A program made the position numbers and the translations under genes. The notes beneath the pieces are model-generated. The model made no database searches. It saw only the letters and a program-made list of their open reading frames with translations, and was not told where the DNA came from. This document shows positions 2,721 to 40,106 of a DNA stretch of 40,895 bases, one piece after another. This DNA is from an uncultured Clostridia bacterium. Its GTDB lineage: Bacteria; Bacillota; Clostridia; Oscillospirales; Ruminococcaceae. The stretch is from positions 1-40,895 of the forward strand of contig CANQTP010000023.1 in NCBI GenBank assembly GCA_947626755.1, read 5' to 3'. Position 1 is the stretch's first letter; each line of letters opens with the position of its first letter.

Positions 2721-4025
2721 TTACTGCGCCGCTGCTTCTTCGGGGGAATTATTTTCTTTACTGTCGATAATATTTTTTAAAAAATATACAAAAACGCCTT
2801 TGGATTTTCCTTTTAAAGGAATTTCACCTATAGGTTCGACTTCGACTCTGTCCTTGACCTGTTCGTAAACATACTCGCTGATAAGCACCTGACCGCGCTT
2901 GGCGTTTGATTCCAGACGGGCGGCGGTGTTTACCGTGTCGCCAATTGCGGTATAGTCCATACGGAAGTTGCAGCCGATGTTTCCAACAACGGCATTTCCG
3001 CAGTTGACTCCCACGCCGAAGCTGACCGACTTGCCGTATTTTTCAAGGAATTTGCTTTCGATCTCGTTTCCGCCGTTTACAATATCAAGAGCGGTCTTTA
3101 CAGCTCGGAAAACATAGTCGTCCAGATCAAAAGGAGCGTTGAAAACAGCCATTGTGGCGTCGCCGATGAATTTGTCCAGCGTTCCGCCGTTCTTGAAAAT
3201 GGCGTTTGTGGTAAGATTCAGGTAACTGTTGAGAATATCCACCACCTGTTCGGGCTCAAGACTTTCCGACATGGGAGTGAATCCGCGTATATCCACGAAA
3301 AGCACCGCGATATGACGATTTTCGCCGCCAAGCTTTATGGTATAATTTCCCTTGGAAGCGATCTCATCGACCACCTGCGGAGCAACATATTTCCTGAAAG
3401 CGTCCGTTACGCGTTTCTTTTCCAGAGCTTCATGGACGTATTTCCGTACAAGATTGATAAGGTAGCCAACAACCATGAAAAGCAGTGAGTAAATAACCGG
3501 GTACGCCGTTCCAAGAAAATTTACAAGCATAAAGACGCACGCAAGGAGTATCATTCCAATAAATGTCACAGGCGTGGAAAATTTCAGCTTATACTGTCTT
3601 GAAATAAAGTATATCAGTGCCGCCGCAGCCGCGCTTACTATAGAAGCATACCATCTGCCCGCAGGAACGGGGCTTCTCTCGTCCATAAGTTCCTGTAAAA
3701 TATTTGCGTGGATCTCAACTCCGTACATCTGAACGGAACTTCCCGGAACGGAATACTGATCCTGCATTCCCGCGGCATACGCACCTACAAGAACTATACA
3801 ATCGGTAAAGATCCTCGGATCAACATTTCCGTTCAGCACATCAATAAATGAGATATATTCATAATCGCCGGGACGTCCTGCGTAATTTATCCGGAATCTG
3901 CCGTTGCCGTCAAGTTTCGGGACATATTCGGAAGCGCCTGTTCTTTCGCAGTAAAGTGAATATATCACCGAGGAAAAGCTTTTATAGACTTCTCCGCCGC
4001 TTACTTCGGGAGAGGACTGGCTCAT
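2721..4025 (-). CDS. Class III adenylate/guanylate cyclase, C-terminal part of a CHASE2-cyclase
   Basis: This holds the end of the CHASE2 sensor, two or three membrane segments (around WYASIVSAAAAALIYF and GMILLACVFMLVNFLG) and a complete class III nucleotide cyclase domain. Cyclase motifs visible include VLFVDIRGFTPMSE (metal Asp), FIGDATMAVFNAP (second metal Asp) and DYTAIGDTVNTAARLE near the substrate/transition-state region. The product would be cAMP or cGMP made in the cytoplasm in response to an extracellular signal. The first ATG has no ribosome site. The frame is open upstream to about 4204, where the coding sense joins the N-terminal ORF after removal of one TA unit; the joined protein would be 605 residues. 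As it stands, this piece is probably poorly expressed. Confidence 0.8.
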   Translation of the reverse strand: MSQSSPEVSGGEVYKSFSSVIYSLYCERTGASEYVPKLDGNGRFRINYAGRPGDYEYISFIDVLNGNVDPRIFTDCIVLVGAYAAGMQDQYSVPGSSVQMYGVEIHANILQELMDERSPVPAGRWYASIVSAAAAALIYFISRQYKLKFSTPVTFIGMILLACVFMLVNFLGTAYPVIYSLLFMVVGYLINLVRKYVHEALEKKRVTDAFRKYVAPQVVDEIASKGNYTIKLGGENRHIAVLFVDIRGFTPMSESLEPEQVVDILNSYLNLTTNAIFKNGGTLDKFIGDATMAVFNAPFDLDDYVFRAVKTALDIVNGGNEIESKFLEKYGKSVSFGVGVNCGNAVVGNIGCNFRMDYTAIGDTVNTAARLESNAKRGQVLISEYVYEQVKDRVEVEPIGEIPLKGKSKGVFVYFLKNIIDSKENNSPEEAAAQ

Positions 4026-30641: not shown

Positions 30642-31787
30642 ATGAACAGATTTATCCTCAATGAAACGTCCTATCACGGCAGCGGCGCGATCTCCGCTAT
30701 CAAGGACGAAGCTGTGGGCAGAGCTTTCAAGAAAGCTTTCCTTTGCTCCGACCCCGATCTGCTGAAATTCGGCGTTACAAAGAAAGTCACCGACATTCTT
30801 GACGGCGCAGGTCTGAAATATGAGATCTACTCCGAGATCAAGCCTAACCCCACCATTGAAAACGTTCAGCACGGTGTTGCAGCTTATAAGGCTTCTGGTG
30901 CGGACTATATCATCGCTGTGGGCGGCGGTTCTTCAATGGATACCGCAAAGGCTATCGGAATCATTATCAACAATCCCGAATTTGCGGACGTAAGAAGCCT
31001 TGAAGGCGTTGCGGATACAAAGAATAAGTGCGTTCCTATATTTGCAGTTCCCACAACAGCAGGCACAGCCGCAGAAGTTACCATTAACTACGTTATCACG
31101 GACGTTGAGAAAAACCGCAAGATGGTCTGCGTTGATCCTCACGATATACCCGTTGTTGCTTTCGTTGATCCTGATATGATGGAATCCATGCCCAAGGGAC
31201 TTACTGCCGCAACCGGCATGGACGCTCTTACCCACGCTATCGAAGGCTACATCACAAAGGGCGCATGGGAACTTTCCGATATGTTCCACCTGAAAGCTAT
31301 CGAGATAATTTCAAGAAGTCTCCGCGGCGCAGTTGCAAACACAAAAGAGGGACGTCTTGACATGGCTCTCGGTCAGTATGTGGCAGGCATGGGCTTCTCA
31401 AATGTAGGTCTGGGAATCGTTCACTCCATGGCTCACCCTCTGGGCGCGCTGTATGATACTCCCCACGGCGTTGCAAACGCTATAATCCTTCCTACCGTTA
31501 TGGAATACAACGCTCCCGCAACAGGCGAGAAATACCGCGAGATCGCAAGAGCAATGGGCGTAAAGGGCGTTGACAATATGTCTCAGGACGAGTACAGAAA
31601 AGCCGCAATTGACGCTGTTAAACAGCTTTCCAAGGACGTTGGCATTCCCGAAAATCTTAAAGACATCGTTAAGACAGAGGATATTCCGTTCCTTGCGCAG
31701 TCCGCATATGACGACGCTTGCCGTCCCGGAAATCCCCGTGACACTTCCGTTGAAGAGATCACAGAACTTTACAAGTCGCTTATGTAA
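30642..31787 (+). CDS. fucO: Lactaldehyde reductase / iron-containing alcohol dehydrogenase FucO
   Basis: A 381-residue group III alcohol dehydrogenase, the same length as E. coli FucO. It reduces L-lactaldehyde (from fucose or rhamnose breakdown) to 1,2-propanediol with NADH in the cytoplasm. GGGSSMDTAKAIG is the nucleotide-binding loop. The iron ligands line up with FucO as Asp194, His198, His261 and His275 (GMDALTHAIEGY, HSMAHPLGALYDTPHG). The start is ATG 30642, ten bases after AAAGGAG; TTG 30633 is too close to the ribosome site. The fucU gene downstream supports a role in fucose fermentation. Highly expressed codon use is suggested by frequent CGC/GGC/AAG. Confidence 0.92.
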   Translation: MNRFILNETSYHGSGAISAIKDEAVGRAFKKAFLCSDPDLLKFGVTKKVTDILDGAGLKYEIYSEIKPNPTIENVQHGVAAYKASGADYIIAVGGGSSMDTAKAIGIIINNPEFADVRSLEGVADTKNKCVPIFAVPTTAGTAAEVTINYVITDVEKNRKMVCVDPHDIPVVAFVDPDMMESMPKGLTAATGMDALTHAIEGYITKGAWELSDMFHLKAIEIISRSLRGAVANTKEGRLDMALGQYVAGMGFSNVGLGIVHSMAHPLGALYDTPHGVANAIILPTVMEYNAPATGEKYREIARAMGVKGVDNMSQDEYRKAAIDAVKQLSKDVGIPENLKDIVKTEDIPFLAQSAYDDACRPGNPRDTSVEEITELYKSLM

Positions 31788-31813
31788 TTTATCCAAGCGA
31801 ACAACGATCTGCG

Positions 31814-31861
31814 CAGTATCCTCCGGCTATCCTCCGGAAGCGGAGGATACTGTTATTTTTT
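31814..31861 (+). terminator. Terminator/attenuator between fucO and fucU
   Basis: Stem CAGTATCCTCCG/CGGAGGATACTG (31814-31825 with 31841-31852) followed by TTATTTTTT. A second TATCCTCCGG copy in the loop allows an alternative pairing. It probably reduces fucU relative to fucO. Confidence 0.75.
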
Positions 31862-31881
31862 ACAGAATAGAGGAATGTGAA

Positions 31882-32307
31882 ATGTTAAAGAATATCCCGA
31901 AAATAATTTCGCCCGAACTTATGAAGATACTCATGGAAATGGGACACGGCGATGAAATAGTCTTTGCTGACGGAAATTTTCCCGCTGAGACCATGGGCAA
32001 ACGAGTCGTGCGGTGTGACGGTCACGGCGTTTCCGATCTTTTGGACGCGGTAATGAAGTTTTTCCCGCTTGACACCTATGTGGAGAAGCCTGTTGTGCTT
32101 ATGGAAGTGGTAAAAGGCGATGATACTCCAGACATATGGTACACATATGAGGAGATACTGAACCGCTACGAACCCGACAACTGCAAGATAGAAATGCTTG
32201 AACGCTTTGATTTCTACGAAAGAGCAAAAACCGCATATGCGGTAGTTTCAACAGGCGAGGAAGCATTGTACGCGAATATAATTCTCAAAAAAGGCGTTGT
32301 AAAATAA
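31882..32307 (+). CDS. fucU: L-fucose mutarotase
   Basis: A 141-residue RbsD/FucU-family protein. It interconverts alpha and beta anomers of L-fucose (some members also ribose). MLKNIPKIISPELMKILMEM and GHGDEIVFADGNFPAE are characteristic, with the catalytic His in MGHGDE and a C-terminal aromatic/His region. The start is ATG 31882, behind AGAGGAATG. Pairing with fucO indicates fucose use, although the isomerase, kinase and aldolase genes are not in this window. Confidence 0.93.
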   Translation: MLKNIPKIISPELMKILMEMGHGDEIVFADGNFPAETMGKRVVRCDGHGVSDLLDAVMKFFPLDTYVEKPVVLMEVVKGDDTPDIWYTYEEILNRYEPDNCKIEMLERFDFYERAKTAYAVVSTGEEALYANIILKKGVVK

Positions 32308-32357: not shown

Positions 32358-32388
32358 CAAAAAGCCGCAGGGCGACTTGCCTGCGGCT
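32358..32388 (-). terminator. Minus-strand terminator ending the mini-ORF array RNA
   Basis: On the minus strand the stem AGCCGCAGG/CCTGCGGCT (32380-32388 with 32363-32371) is followed directly by TTTTTGAATTT. On the plus strand no U run follows. Since no ordinary minus-strand gene lies upstream of it for 2.4 kb, it implies a minus-strand transcript through 32400-33750. Confidence 0.85.
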
Positions 32389-32437
32389 CCGAATTTATCA
32401 TTAAATATGGCTTTTCAGCACAACTAAATGTTCAGGC

Positions 32438-33082
32438 GGACTCACTCCTAACTTTCAGATTTTTAAATATCTCCGAACATTTTTCATAGGTCATTCCTTT
32501 CAAAATCATACATAACAGCGGACTGACACTTGCTTATGCCATTGGACTCACTCCTTGAAATTCAATATTCCGTAAGGTAAATTTTCCTGCGCATAAGGCA
32601 GCAGCTCCTTTTTGAAATATATATATCAAGCGAATAAGGCTTATGCCATCGGACTCACTCCTTAACTATCAATATTCCTTTGGTACGGTAAAATCAAGAT
32701 CATATGCACCGACTCCTTTGGGAATAATCAAACTATTAAGGCATTGAAGCCGCAAACTATGCCATTGGACTCACTCCTGCGTTTTCAGATTTTTTTATAA
32801 GAAGCCTTTACAATTACCATATTATATCACTCAATTCTGAGAGTATTTTTTCCGAAATCGGTCAAAACCGTTATGACTGTCCTGTCGGACTCACCTCTTT
32901 CAAAAATTTATTTCATATTCAGATCATGATATGCATAATCAGGTTTCCTCATATGCATCCCTTCATTTCATTAAAATTTTTATCCGAAGAAAATTAAACT
33001 TTCAGGTGGTCTCACTCCCATCAATTTAACTCATGATATATCTGAAACCTTTATAAACTCCCATCATAGGACATCGCCCCTT
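32438..33082 (-). repeat. Diverged tandem units with AGGAGTGAGTCC motif
   Basis: On the minus strand the motif GGAGTGAGTCC or a close variant occurs at 32438-32448, 32544-32554, 32651-32661, 32767-32777, 32887-32897 (GAGGTGAGTCC) and 33008-33018 (GGAGTGAGACC). Steps are 106, 107, 116, 120 and 121 bp. More distant copies are at 33069-33082 and 33428-33445. Three copies continue one base later into ATG-GCA-TAA or ATG-GCA-TAG. The sequence before the motif also repeats: GGAATATTGA or AAAATCTGAAA. Confidence 0.8.
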
Positions 33083-33426
33083 AACGGTCACTATTCCGAA
33101 ACGGGTATAAAAATTCCCCGATCAAAATATACTTGCATTTTATGTAAAGCCCTTTGTGGGGGACGTTCACCCGACAGTCTCGCAATGCACTGTATATCAA
33201 GCCGAGGGTATTAAAAAACCACACGATAAAGCTTGCTTGCTGAATCTATGCGGCACGTAGATCATTATATACTTCAAGAGGAATAAATGCTAATCGCTTT
33301 TAAATCCGGAGTGAGGTCTGAAAAGACGCTTACATTTAAACTCCGCGCACATTTATCTTAAAGTAAAGCTGTGAACGAGCCGCTGCGGACTGTCATAAAA
33401 AACTTCTGCTCTGTTACATTCTCCAT
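32455..33426 (-). other. Seven candidate mini-ORFs within the array
   Basis: From 5' to 3' on the minus strand: 33358-33426 (22 codons, starts MENVTEQ), 33026-33067 (MMGVYKGFRYIMS), 32908-32952 (MRKPDYAYHDLNMK), 32785-32820 (MVIVKASYKKI), 32662-32703 (MILILPYQRNIDS), 32562-32594 (MRRKIYLTEY) and 32455-32487 (MKNVRRYLKI). Most have a good ribosome site 7-10 bases upstream (AAAGGAATGACC, AAAAGGAGCTGCTG, AAAGGAGTCGG, AAGGGGCGATG, GGAAAGG). The peptides are mostly basic but do not resemble one another, while the spacing and ribosome-site pattern is conserved. Translation is unproven. Confidence 0.4.
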
Positions 33427-33754
33427 GGGACTCGCCAACCTTTCCAAGATAAATTTTACAGATTCCCGTATCCGCAAGCATCTTGCTGAAACATTATTCA
33501 CAAACTGATATTTCCGGATAGAACATCGGGTCTGACTCTCTGGGATAAAGAATATTTACTGACATTGGGTCAAGAGTTCATCGGAAGTTCGGGAACATTG
33601 CTCTGCGGATCTGCAATTCCGCGGATATTATCCGACTGCTGCGGTCTTAAAACTTAGCTGAGGATCGTGCCCGACCATCGTGGGCAGTGACCGGGTCTTA
33701 AGAAACCGACCTCCGTGTTCTTGCTTGCCTTATCGTTTCTTTGTCCTTGAGTAT

Positions 33755-33783
33755 ACTATAGCACACTCTTTGTGCAATGTCAA
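33755..33783 (-). promoter_or_regulatory. Promoter of the mini-ORF array RNA
   Basis: TTGACA (33778-33783), 17-bp spacer, TATAGT (33755-33760) on the minus strand: eleven of twelve consensus bases. It diverges from the DUF1292 promoter. Confidence 0.8.
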
Positions 33784-33842
33784 TAGTTTTTTATAAAAAA
33801 TACTCTACAGTATTTGTGCAAGATTTTTGTTAATATTTCACC

Positions 33843-33872
33843 TTGACAAATATGTCCGAAATGGTGTAAAAT
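33843..33872 (+). promoter_or_regulatory. Promoter of the DUF1292 gene
   Basis: TTGACA (33843-33848), 18-bp spacer, TAAAAT (33867-33872). Confidence 0.65.
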
Positions 33873-33944
33873 AAAATAGTTGGGTGTTCGGACGGAGAAT
33901 AGTTCGTCTGTTCCCCCTCTTATTGAATTTAAGGAGGAAATACT

Positions 33945-34244
33945 ATGCCCGCCGATAATGATATGACCGCCGATCTCTACACCCTTGTAGATGAGGACGG
34001 CGTTGAGCAGCAGTTTGAACTGCTTGATACCATGGACGTTGACGATGACAGATACTATGCCCTTGTTCCCTATTATGCAGACCCTTCTCAGGAACTCAGT
34101 TCCGATACGGAACTTGTAGTTCTCAAATCCGAGTATGACGAAAACGACGAGGAAACTCTCGTTTCCATCGACAATGATGAAGAATACGAAAGAATAGGAA
34201 ATATGTTCCTTGAAAGGCTCAACAAGCTTTACGATGATGAATAA
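33945..34244 (+). CDS. DUF1292 (YrzB-like) acidic protein
   Basis: A 99-residue, strongly acidic soluble protein of the DUF1292/YrzB family. The pattern YTLVDEDGVEQQFELLDTMD, YYALVPYY, LVVLKSEYDENDEETLVSID matches. Family members often lie with ireB and ruvX in Firmicutes; their role is unknown. Here the gene is separate, behind its own promoter and the excellent ribosome site AAGGAGGAAAT. Downstream lie two small RNA genes with their own promoters. Confidence 0.88.
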   Translation: MPADNDMTADLYTLVDEDGVEQQFELLDTMDVDDDRYYALVPYYADPSQELSSDTELVVLKSEYDENDEETLVSIDNDEEYERIGNMFLERLNKLYDDE

Positions 34245-34292: not shown

Positions 34293-34475
34293 TGAACGGT
34301 GTTAGGTCGCTCATCTATCGTAAGTGCTTCACAGCTTGTTAAAATGTGAGTTTTTATCGTAAGCGCTCCGCTGCTTGTAAAAATGCGGGTTTTATATCGT
34401 AAGTGCTTCACAGCTTGTTAAATGTGAGATAAAAGCGATCAGGGTCGGGCAATGCTGTTGTCCGGCTCTCGTTGA
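34293..34475 (+). ncRNA. Small RNA of three tandem hairpin repeats
   Basis: About 180 nt between a perfect promoter and a strong terminator. Three repeats of 39-40 nt start at 34316, 34355 and 34395, each beginning TATCGTAAG. Each contains a hairpin with a conserved loop (GCTTGTTAAAA or close). The stems are UUCACA/UGUGAG in repeats 1 and 3 and UCCGC/GCGGG in repeat 2, so two base pairs change in a compensatory way. That supports a selected RNA structure. No ORF of note. A protein-binding or multi-target antisense RNA is possible; no known family recognised. Confidence 0.7.
34442..34468 (+). terminator. Terminator of the three-hairpin RNA
   Basis: Stem GGGTCGGGCAA/TTGTCCGGCTC (11 pairs with G-U pairs) and a 5-base loop, followed by TCGTTGATTATT. 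Confidence 0.65.
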
Positions 34476-34550: not shown

Positions 34551-34756
34551 AAGCGATTTCTGCCTTGTACGATAAAGTGTGATTTTATAATCCAACACAT
34601 AATTTCAGGGATTCAGACTCCGTCGGCGGATTGCAGACCTCCCGCCCCATTAGATGTGGGGAGTAACGGACGCAGGGAGCGCGAAACCGATGGGCTGTTG
34701 CCCACCTGCTGAGTGCGGGTTTTATGCTTCACATGGCGGCAAGGCGGTTATCTTAG
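34551..34756 (+). ncRNA. ssrS: 6S RNA (RNA polymerase regulator)
   Basis: About 200 nt with the 6S plan: a closing stem (GAU 34555-34557 with AUC 34750-34752; CUGCCUUG 34560-34567 with CAAGGCGG 34740-34747), a long interior region and an inner GC-rich arm. The 5' end GATTTCTGCCTTGTACG and the 3' GGCGGCAAGGCGG recall E. coli 6S (ATTTCTCTGAGATGTTCG and GGCGGCATCTCGGAG). 6S RNA mimics an open promoter and holds the housekeeping RNA polymerase in stationary phase. Family assignment is by eye; a covariance-model search would settle it. Confidence 0.7.
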
Positions 34757-39860: not shown

Positions 39861-39944
39861 GCGGGTGTGGCGGAATTGGCAGACGCGCCGGACTTAGGAT
39901 CCGGTGTCCGGGACGTGCAGGTTCAAGTCCTGTCACCCGCACCA
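39861..39944 (+). tRNA. tRNA-Leu (anticodon UAG)
   Basis: 84 nt with CCA encoded. The acceptor stem GCGGGTG pairs with CACCCGC. The anticodon stem CCGGA/TCCGG encloses loop CTTAGGA, giving anticodon TAG at 39895-39897. There is a long variable arm (TGTCCGGGACGTGC region) as expected for leucine, and the T arm is CAGGTTCAAGTCCTG. It reads CUA and probably other CUN codons. Confidence 0.95.
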
Positions 39945-40030
39945 AAAAGCAGGATTCGGCAGGAATATCCGAGTCTGCGGTCTTATTTTGGAACATTTTG
40001 GCAGAAAACAGCAGTGTAAAAATATCCCAT

Positions 40031-40106
40031 GGGGCATTAGCGCAGTTGGGAGCGCACCACACCGGCAGTGTGGGGGTCAGGGGTTCAAGTCCCCTATGCT
40101 CCACCA
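40031..40106 (+). tRNA. tRNA-Ala (anticodon GGC), with C at position 33
   Basis: 76 nt with CCA encoded. The acceptor stem GGGGCAT pairs with ATGCTCC, including the G3-U70 wobble that marks alanine tRNAs. The anticodon stem CCACA/TGTGG encloses loop CCGGCAG, anticodon GGC. The base before the anticodon is C, not the nearly universal U33. T arm AGGGGTTCAAGTCCCCT is normal. It shares the promoter and terminator with tRNA-Leu. Confidence 0.9.

Follow-up and report, generated by a model that had tools for sequence, protein, structure and literature searches.

Lambda bar is a minigene system. Leader peptides and attenuators combine short open reading frames, conserved residues and a ribosome-binding site held in a hairpin, and CsrB and CsrC are sponges for CsrA that carry tandem short GGA motifs. 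Papers on a 'ribosome sponge' reportedly deal with an insect, mammals and Plasmodium. The open-access literature yielded neither a ribosome-sponge RNA of bacteria nor an array of minigenes, and neither there nor in Rfam did we find a described RNA built of tandem start-stop units. Gene leaders are known to contain two-codon minigenes as single elements, according to the accessible part of PMC8708949. In the papers found, minigene action has so far been addressed with single leader elements and plasmid constructs.

The locus described here lies on the minus strand (33783-32361) of the window, the whole stretch of 40,895 nucleotides that was analysed. Its promoter, TTGACA-N17-TATAGT with an extended -10 and an A-rich upstream region (33755..33783), matches 11 of the 12 consensus bases, and a terminator scan found a strong intrinsic terminator of 11 pairs at 32361..32390. 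With the transcription start set at about 33749, as assumed from the promoter, the predicted RNA spans 32361..33749. Promoter-like sites are more frequent than expected (14 per 2.9 kb vs 6.5), so the hexamers by themselves are weak proof; the promoter at 33783-33755 is nevertheless conserved. Neither strand has an ORF of at least 80 amino acids between 32307 and 33780. The promoter, the minus-strand terminator and the lack of a normal gene between them had all been described in the earlier note, which was made from the sequence alone. The Rfam search of the 1.4-kb region which that note had proposed was run with 4227 families on the window and ten further array loci, and no family matched the RNA at its gathering score. 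A permissive search of the region gave five matches, all below gathering, the best of which was RcsR1 (29.7 bits vs 60) over the terminator.

The motif GGAGTGAGTCC occurs in four exact copies (32438, 32544, 32651 and 32767), and a fifth copy (33008) deviates from it at a single position. The sixth, GAGGTGAGTCC at 32897-32887, has diverged further. At up to one mismatch the window has six matches where 0.25 are expected, one of them unrelated, at 3274. The 'six AGGAGTGAGTCC' motifs of the earlier note are thus six copies of which only four are exact and two are variants, and the steps of 106-121 nt that it gave are those of the six copies. It was right about the seven mini-ORFs, which have 22, 13, 14, 11, 13, 10 and 10 codons, and about the three motifs that run straight into ATG-GCA-stop (TAG, TAA and TAA). 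The RNA of the source genome carries, besides these seven mini-ORFs and three minigenes with a Shine-Dalgarno (SD) sequence, three start-less copies of the motif.

From the 5' end, all on the minus strand and each ORF closed by a stop codon, the units are ORF-A (MENVTEQKFFMTVRSGSFTALL, 33358..33426), whose SD leader pairs with a segment within the ORF, in a predicted structured 5' domain (33131..33450); ORF-B (MMGVYKGFRYIMS, 33026..33067) and the start-less site GGAGTGAGACCACCTGA (33002..33018, motif scan); ORF-C (MRKPDYAYHDLNMK, 32908..32952), with a conserved [FY]HDLN core, and the start-less site GAGGTGAGTCCGACAGG (32881..32897, read as a motif); ORF-D (MVIVKASYKKI, 32785..32820) and site 1, the minigene GGAGTGAGTCC-A-ATG GCA TAG (32757..32777); ORF-E (MILILPYQRNIDS, 32662..32703) and site 2, GGAGTGAGTCC-G-ATG GCA TAA (32641..32661); ORF-F (MRRKIYLTEY, 32562..32594) and site 3, GGAGTGAGTCC-A-ATG GCA TAA (32534..32554); and ORF-G (MKNVRRYLKI, 32455..32487) and the last site, the start-less GGAGTGAGTCCGCCTGA (32432..32448). 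Sites 1 to 3 came from the motif scan, ORF-E, ORF-F and ORF-G from an ORF pattern and the last site from a family scan with GGAGTGAKWCCRCCNGA. In the source genome the pattern GGWGNGAGTCCNATG is confined to the three minigene sites. From ORF-D to the last site starts follow one another every 51-62 nt, with the longer mini-ORFs beginning between the minigenes.

Within the genus, a query of 1461 nt from this region matched 19 of the 20 other genomes (none in G015, and only a short match in G017). Most rows of an alignment of 19 sequences have motifs, minigenes, mini-ORFs and terminator in register; G003, G005 and G011 are without one or more modules, and G013a is truncated by a contig end. Read by eye, the alignment varies in its downstream sequence among genus members. 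An exact motif scan gave 22 stretches, from metagenome assemblies that carry the labels Ruminococcus sp., Oscillospiraceae or uncultured Clostridia. The third codon is a stop at all 54 GGAGTGAGWCC-N-ATG sites of the genus (TAA 32, TAG 19, TGA 3), and the middle codon is GCA in 49, TCA in 2, GCT in 2 and GTA in 1, so that 51 of the 54 encode alanine; 43 more copies of GGAGTGAGWCC are without ATG. In a second minigene type of the genus, AAGGTGA..CC-N-ATG, the third codon is a stop in 10 of the 13 cases, and in the other 3 the stop comes at least one codon later. The mini-ORFs are open in 19 (B and C), 18 (D) and 17 (G) of 20 genus sequences, ORF-D with 11 codons in all 18 sequences where it was found, and the ORF pattern caught ORF-E and ORF-F less often. 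Values of pN/pS of 0.77-0.88 for ORFs A, B (0.82), D and G, the last calculated after three rows had been left out that were ORF-D by a pattern error, indicate weak constraint on amino acids. The 3' end of ORF-A differs in several relatives through frame changes, and its nucleotides remain similar. The earlier note had held that peptides differ while motif and spacing are kept: this is the case for most ORFs, and the core of ORF-C, under strong purifying selection, departs from it. The spacing of the motifs, on whose conservation in related genomes that note had made its reading depend, is kept. The remnant of a degraded larger gene was rejected as an explanation, given the lack of any ORF of at least 80 amino acids and the maintenance of stops and spacing across species.

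Outside the genus, BLAST matches in four genomes of other genera do not extend past the promoter and start, about the first 66 bases, and similar promoter matches are found also at other places in the source genome (contig C52) and in G016 (C140). The divergent DUF1292 gene, a syntenic neighbour outside the RNA (33945..34244, plus strand; PF06949 match 33993-34220), is present in 102 of 108 family genomes and was used as anchor, so that loci were not chosen by motif; in G022 the BLAST match is on contig C1 and the DUF1292 locus on a different contig, C21. This unselected survey took one locus from each of 90 genomes among the 102 that have a DUF1292 match. Beside DUF1292 in these 90 genomes, 94 minigenes preceded by CC are on the RNA strand vs 4 on the opposite strand (counted by hand from table rows), with about 3 expected from Markov shuffles; the CC requirement is built into this comparison, and when it is dropped the counts are 128 sense and 17 antisense. 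At least two sites are present in 53 of 90 loci on the sense strand and 1 on the antisense, the promoter pattern alone in 47 and 8, and promoter together with at least two sites in 44 and 0. Fewer than two sites were found at the DUF1292 position in 37 of the 90 loci; 34 have neither promoter nor two sites and three have the promoter only. Among these three, short ORFs are preceded by TCC-type leaders in G104 (two leaders) and in G158 (one). Many of the genomes are metagenome assemblies, and because the genomes are related to each other these counts are not independent events.

A scan for the terminal start-less motif GGAGTGAKWCCRCCNGA detected it in 32 of 297 family genomes, covering 17 of 126 genera, and its reversed pattern in 5 genomes. 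By hand count, 23 of the 30 terminal-motif loci returned have at least two short SD-led ORFs (up to 5 codons) upstream. A partly selected set of 111 regions was made up of the 90 surveyed loci, L205 and 20 loci picked for the terminal motif, and in it SD-CC-N-ATG leaders number 263 sense vs 15 antisense, again with CC required. A stop follows within three codons in 172 of the 263 (about 19% expected), and ORFs of more than 25 codons follow only 4. Up to seven minigenes lie on one RNA. In the order outside the family, 28 DUF1292 loci gave three CC-minigenes sense and none antisense, with an array only in G351 (family f24, locus L205).

Across the family the leader consensus is (A/G)GGTGAGTCC(A/G)-ATG, and 85 start-less sites are spread over 47 of 111 genomes. 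The repeated element GTGAGTCC could serve a protein or another RNA as binding site, with the start and stop codons secondary. The element is retained in the start-less sites, and CC at -3/-2 is uncommon elsewhere (3.5% of 545 ordinary SD starts, with TCC in 0.7%), both as such a site would have it; the strict maintenance of the stop codons is left unexplained, and we consider this reading improbable. A mini-hairpin GGW..WCC within each leader was also considered and rejected, because its combinations (A..T 63, T..T 62, T..A 18, A..A 7) give no convincing covariation.

What the minigenes encode changes from genus to genus. The 159 unique family minigenes, collected with CC required, have 45 different products (MA 26, MK 21, MY 16, M alone 11, and 41 others), with second codons for Lys, Tyr, Glu, Cys, Asp, Asn, Val or His, among others, or with none. 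Their stops are TAA in 89, TAG in 39 and TGA in 31. A sponge for peptidyl-tRNA(Ala), as the earlier note had suggested, fails as a general reading: alanine prevails in the genus, but Met-Ala, although the commonest product, makes up only 26 of the 159 in the family. The genes for tRNA-Leu and tRNA-Ala(GGC) were seen at 39861-40106 of the window, and a GGC anticodon is not expected for the GCA codon of the minigenes.

A more general form of the bar mechanism would have fast two-codon cycles release peptidyl-tRNA and so drain particular tRNAs or peptidyl-tRNA hydrolase. The accessible part of PMC8708949 gives short length, a strong SD and UAA stops as features of toxicity, and UAA is indeed the commonest stop here; the bar-type structure (SD, AUG, one or two codons and a stop) is found at all 54 sites of the main genus motif, 10 of 13 of the second type and 172 of 263 family leaders. 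However, the last sense codons are mixed (AAA, GCA, TAC, GCT, AGT and others), so that no tRNA is targeted, some sites are AUG-stop and others have no AUG. An axe-txe minigene gave no growth inhibition when induced, according to the same part of PMC8708949. Drainage of this kind appears quite improbable.

Sites keep a minimum distance from each other. Where a locus had at least three detected sites (56 loci, with sites within 4 nt merged), the distance from each site to the next was taken; of these 248 gaps none is shorter than 42 nt, where 53 would be expected with random placement within the array. Gaps of 48-59 nt number 52 vs 13 expected, and a second peak lies near 96-113 nt; the pattern is blind to leaders without CC, which include most longer mini-ORFs of the source genus. 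The minimum might reflect the least distance between neighbouring ribosomes, as if collisions were barred. Maintained stops, enrichment on one strand, spacing and pN/pS together bear out the view of the earlier note that selection acts on the architecture of ribosome sites and their spacing and not on most of the peptides, and because of this its idea of a ribosome sponge survives.

No 16S gene was found in the source assembly, and the 16S tail was taken from relatives, of which 6 of 8 had 16S; in all six the 3' end is GGTGCGGCTGGATCACCTCCTTTCT. Minigene leaders pair with it at a mean of -11.9 kcal/mol; this weakens to -9.9 when ordinary starts supply the last 5 nt and to -11.2 when these nucleotides are permuted. 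When the tail is cut at AUCACC, the SD core is slightly weaker at array sites (-8.1) than at ordinary starts (-9.1). Better complements of 16S than the leader consensus are possible, GTCCA ranking 163 of 1024. Start-less sites of the RCC type pair at -18.4 vs -17.3 permuted (n=51), and those of the other type show no excess 16S pairing (-17.3 vs -17.4 permuted, n=28). Extended pairing of the leaders with 16S is thus suggestive only. The predicted probability of being unpaired, computed for 145 sites from 40 of the 56 loci, has a median of 0.002 vs 0.008 elsewhere in the RNA; this modelled accessibility would argue against easy access of ribosomes unless translation or chaperones hold the RNA open.

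Most mini-ORFs drift, but the YHDLN core of ORF-C has a pN/pS of 0.04, and the predicted product of this ORF is a conserved peptide with [FY]HDLN. The core recurs with different codons in two other genera (g102 and g115). FHDLN was seen near the C-terminus of mini-ORFs in other genera at loci L091, L155 and L080 (MVMIVPTFHDLNI, MVMIVPAFHDLNI and MQTRGFHDLNHR, each before the stop). Short peptides with conserved residues just before the stop, as in these three, are reminiscent of nascent-chain sensors. The RNA could be a polycistronic mRNA for functional micropeptides, chiefly the [FY]HDLN peptide, with minigenes as devices for coupling or re-initiation. Selection on ORF-C and the recurrence of its motif agree with such a role, and so does the retention of open frames for B, C and D in 18-19 of 20 sequences of the genus. 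On the other side, little constraint is seen in ORFs A, B, D and G, [FY]HDLN is found in just 7 of 111 loci, 4 of these from the source genus, and minigene products are not conserved between genera. The peptide mRNA of the earlier note has partial support, for ORF-C, and as an account of the whole RNA we find it rather unlikely.

The 5' domain is predicted from alignment A2 (18 of 19 regions; G020 was left out) to contain the ORF-A hairpin, the hairpins GGAGT..ACTCC and GCCGCA..TGTGGT and a long-range pairing of CTTTAAGA with TCTTGAAG. RNAalifold within the genus gave the ORF-A hairpin and others, with two-sided changes in only 4 of 40 pairs. Between genera the pairing of the ORF-A leader with a segment inside the ORF shows two-sided changes, with a helix score of 15.0 vs 13.4 for leader-swapped pairs (z 5.0, 0 of 100), and control windows gave z -1.9 and 0.0; when pairing was required up to CC, the stricter test gave z 2.1 (4 of 200). 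Two of the 54 leaders were dropped as near-duplicates in the pairing test. Unlike ORF-A, leaders of minigenes have no pairing beyond chance, either downstream (z -0.6) or upstream (z 0.2). In 23 of the 28 loci listed ORF-A has D, E or Y as its second residue, mostly with E nearby. For the 5' domain across the family, after five of 28 domains had been dropped, no usable alignment was obtained and RNAalifold gave no structure.

These data bear on another explanation, in which a stabilised structured or regulatory RNA works through its 5' domain, with the ORF-A switch and the hairpins, and the minigenes serve only to load ribosomes, which keep RNases away from the 3' part. The folded domain predicted in the genus and the two-sided changes in the ORF-A pairing are in line with it, and the axe-txe two-codon ORF is reported in the accessible part of PMC8708949 to act in cis, possibly by mRNA protection. 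But the array persists between genera where the 5' domain is not usefully alignable, and up to seven minigenes per RNA seem beyond what shielding needs. Of the large structured RNA suggested by the earlier note there is the predicted structured 5' domain, which is not the defining part, and we regard a structured RNA with protective minigenes as unlikely, if the most serious of the alternatives.

A CsrA sponge, another suggestion of the earlier note, would fit the many GGA motifs, and the source genome has a CsrA gene. CsrA was found in only 16 of 60 family genomes, however, and G033, G084, G113 and G115 carry sites with no match to CsrA, and so this idea does not stand as a general reading and is very improbable altogether.

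Of the 111 array loci, 63 have the promoter pattern TTGAC...TGnTAnnnT, in most cases preceded directly by an A-rich tract, and the same architecture is found at rRNA operons of 5 of 6 relatives (the sixth, L229, had no match). The pattern is not specific to this RNA, having 5 matches in the 40.9-kb window. A promoter of this type hints that the RNA is well expressed, perhaps coordinately with ribosome synthesis. Upstream of the RNA promoter, at 33795-33895, the genus keeps a CACAAATACTGT..AGTATTTTGTG-like dyad together with CACCCAACTATTTAATTNTACAACTTTT, a possible operator. Beyond DUF1292 lies a 6S RNA (34554..34754, plus strand; RF00013, 61.8 bits), and three imperfect tandem copies of ATCGTAAGYGCTYCRCWGCTTGTWAAAATG were read by eye between the two, at 34315-34430. 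A c-di-GMP-I riboswitch was seen at 1747-1844 on the minus strand (RF01051, 44.4 bits).

A scan of viral contigs for leader and minigene gave 14 single hits and no arrays. Five of the 14 share a second RNA with a similar rRNA-like promoter, GGTGAGTCC-R-ATG-TAY-TAR near its 5' end, about 240 conserved nucleotides and a terminator. This second RNA, with a single minigene, was seen in L234, L235, L236, L242, L243 and L247-L249, that is in contigs filed as viral and in family f14, genus g30. Parts of it match 3 of 197 order genomes, all from that genus, and GGGTGAGTCCGATGTACTAA is in the same place at the three loci of the genus that were read. The ORF after it in L234 is presumably MreB-like, and given this the contig may be bacterial although filed as viral. 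In five contigs the second RNA had no Rfam match at gathering score, and one piece had nothing above 17 bits.

Start, immediate stop, minimum spacing and promoter are kept while the peptide drifts (ORF-C excepted), and this points to ribosomes as the target. From this anatomy and its conservation, the maintained stop codons, the strand-specific enrichment, the spacing and the promoter type we infer that the RNA is transcribed, would bind ribosomes and may affect translation. A dedicated RNA that captures ribosomes is the best reading, which we hold tentatively and at somewhat short of even confidence. An rRNA-type promoter would make an RNA with ribosome-entry sites at regular intervals, about 13 in the source genome and fewer detected in most relatives. 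Each site would be an SD leader, in many cases with AUG, one or two codons and a stop; of the remaining sites, some are without a start codon and others are ORFs of roughly 10-25 codons. A ribosome that enters would make almost nothing and remain near the site or re-enter, and the RNA would serve as a decoy or parking place for 30S or 70S ribosomes and initiation factors, much as 6S RNA does for RNA polymerase. The selected ORF-C peptide and the ORF-A leader in its conserved hairpin are features that a plain sponge does not need. With still more reserve we propose that the RNA may represent a new class in bacteria, the counterpart of 6S on the side of translation, in which an rRNA-type promoter drives tandem futile start-stop sites in their closest collision-free packing and capacity for translation is buffered or parked; the same leader and minigene (GGTGAGTCC-R-ATG-TAY-TAR) also stand at the head of a different RNA in another family of the order. 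Our estimates for ribosome capture and for the 6S counterpart were both lowered because the SD core is not stronger than at ordinary starts. If the RNA captures ribosomes, gut bacteria adjust their capacity for translation through an RNA, as transcription is adjusted through 6S. Whatever the mechanism, the conserved two-codon ORFs, whose peptides change, offer a natural test of minigene action.

Several known systems share parts of this design. The array RNA would, like the adjoining 6S RNA, be a decoy for a central machine, but it has no RF00013 match (only the neighbour at 34554 does) and its proposed target is different. It has tandem short GGA motifs in common with CsrB and CsrC, whereas its motif is coupled to AUG-codon-stop and several carriers have no CsrA match. 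Like the large ornate RNAs OLE, GOLLD and ROOL (PMC12286853), the array RNA is long and apparently has its own promoter; it is a modular array of short ORFs and not one large fold, and has no Rfam match. With leader peptides and attenuators it shares short ORFs, residues conserved near the C-terminus in ORF-C and a ribosome-binding site in a hairpin in ORF-A; it ends at a terminator, and the next ORF in the window (31570-32307) is convergent. The two-codon ORFs of lambda bar, LEE1 and axe-txe likewise consist of SD, AUG, one codon and a stop, with translation expected (for LEE1 and axe-txe, in the accessible part of PMC8708949). These are single elements, those of LEE1 and axe-txe in gene leaders according to the same source, whereas here up to seven minigenes stand in tandem on a predicted dedicated RNA with its own promoter and terminator, in many genera of one family.
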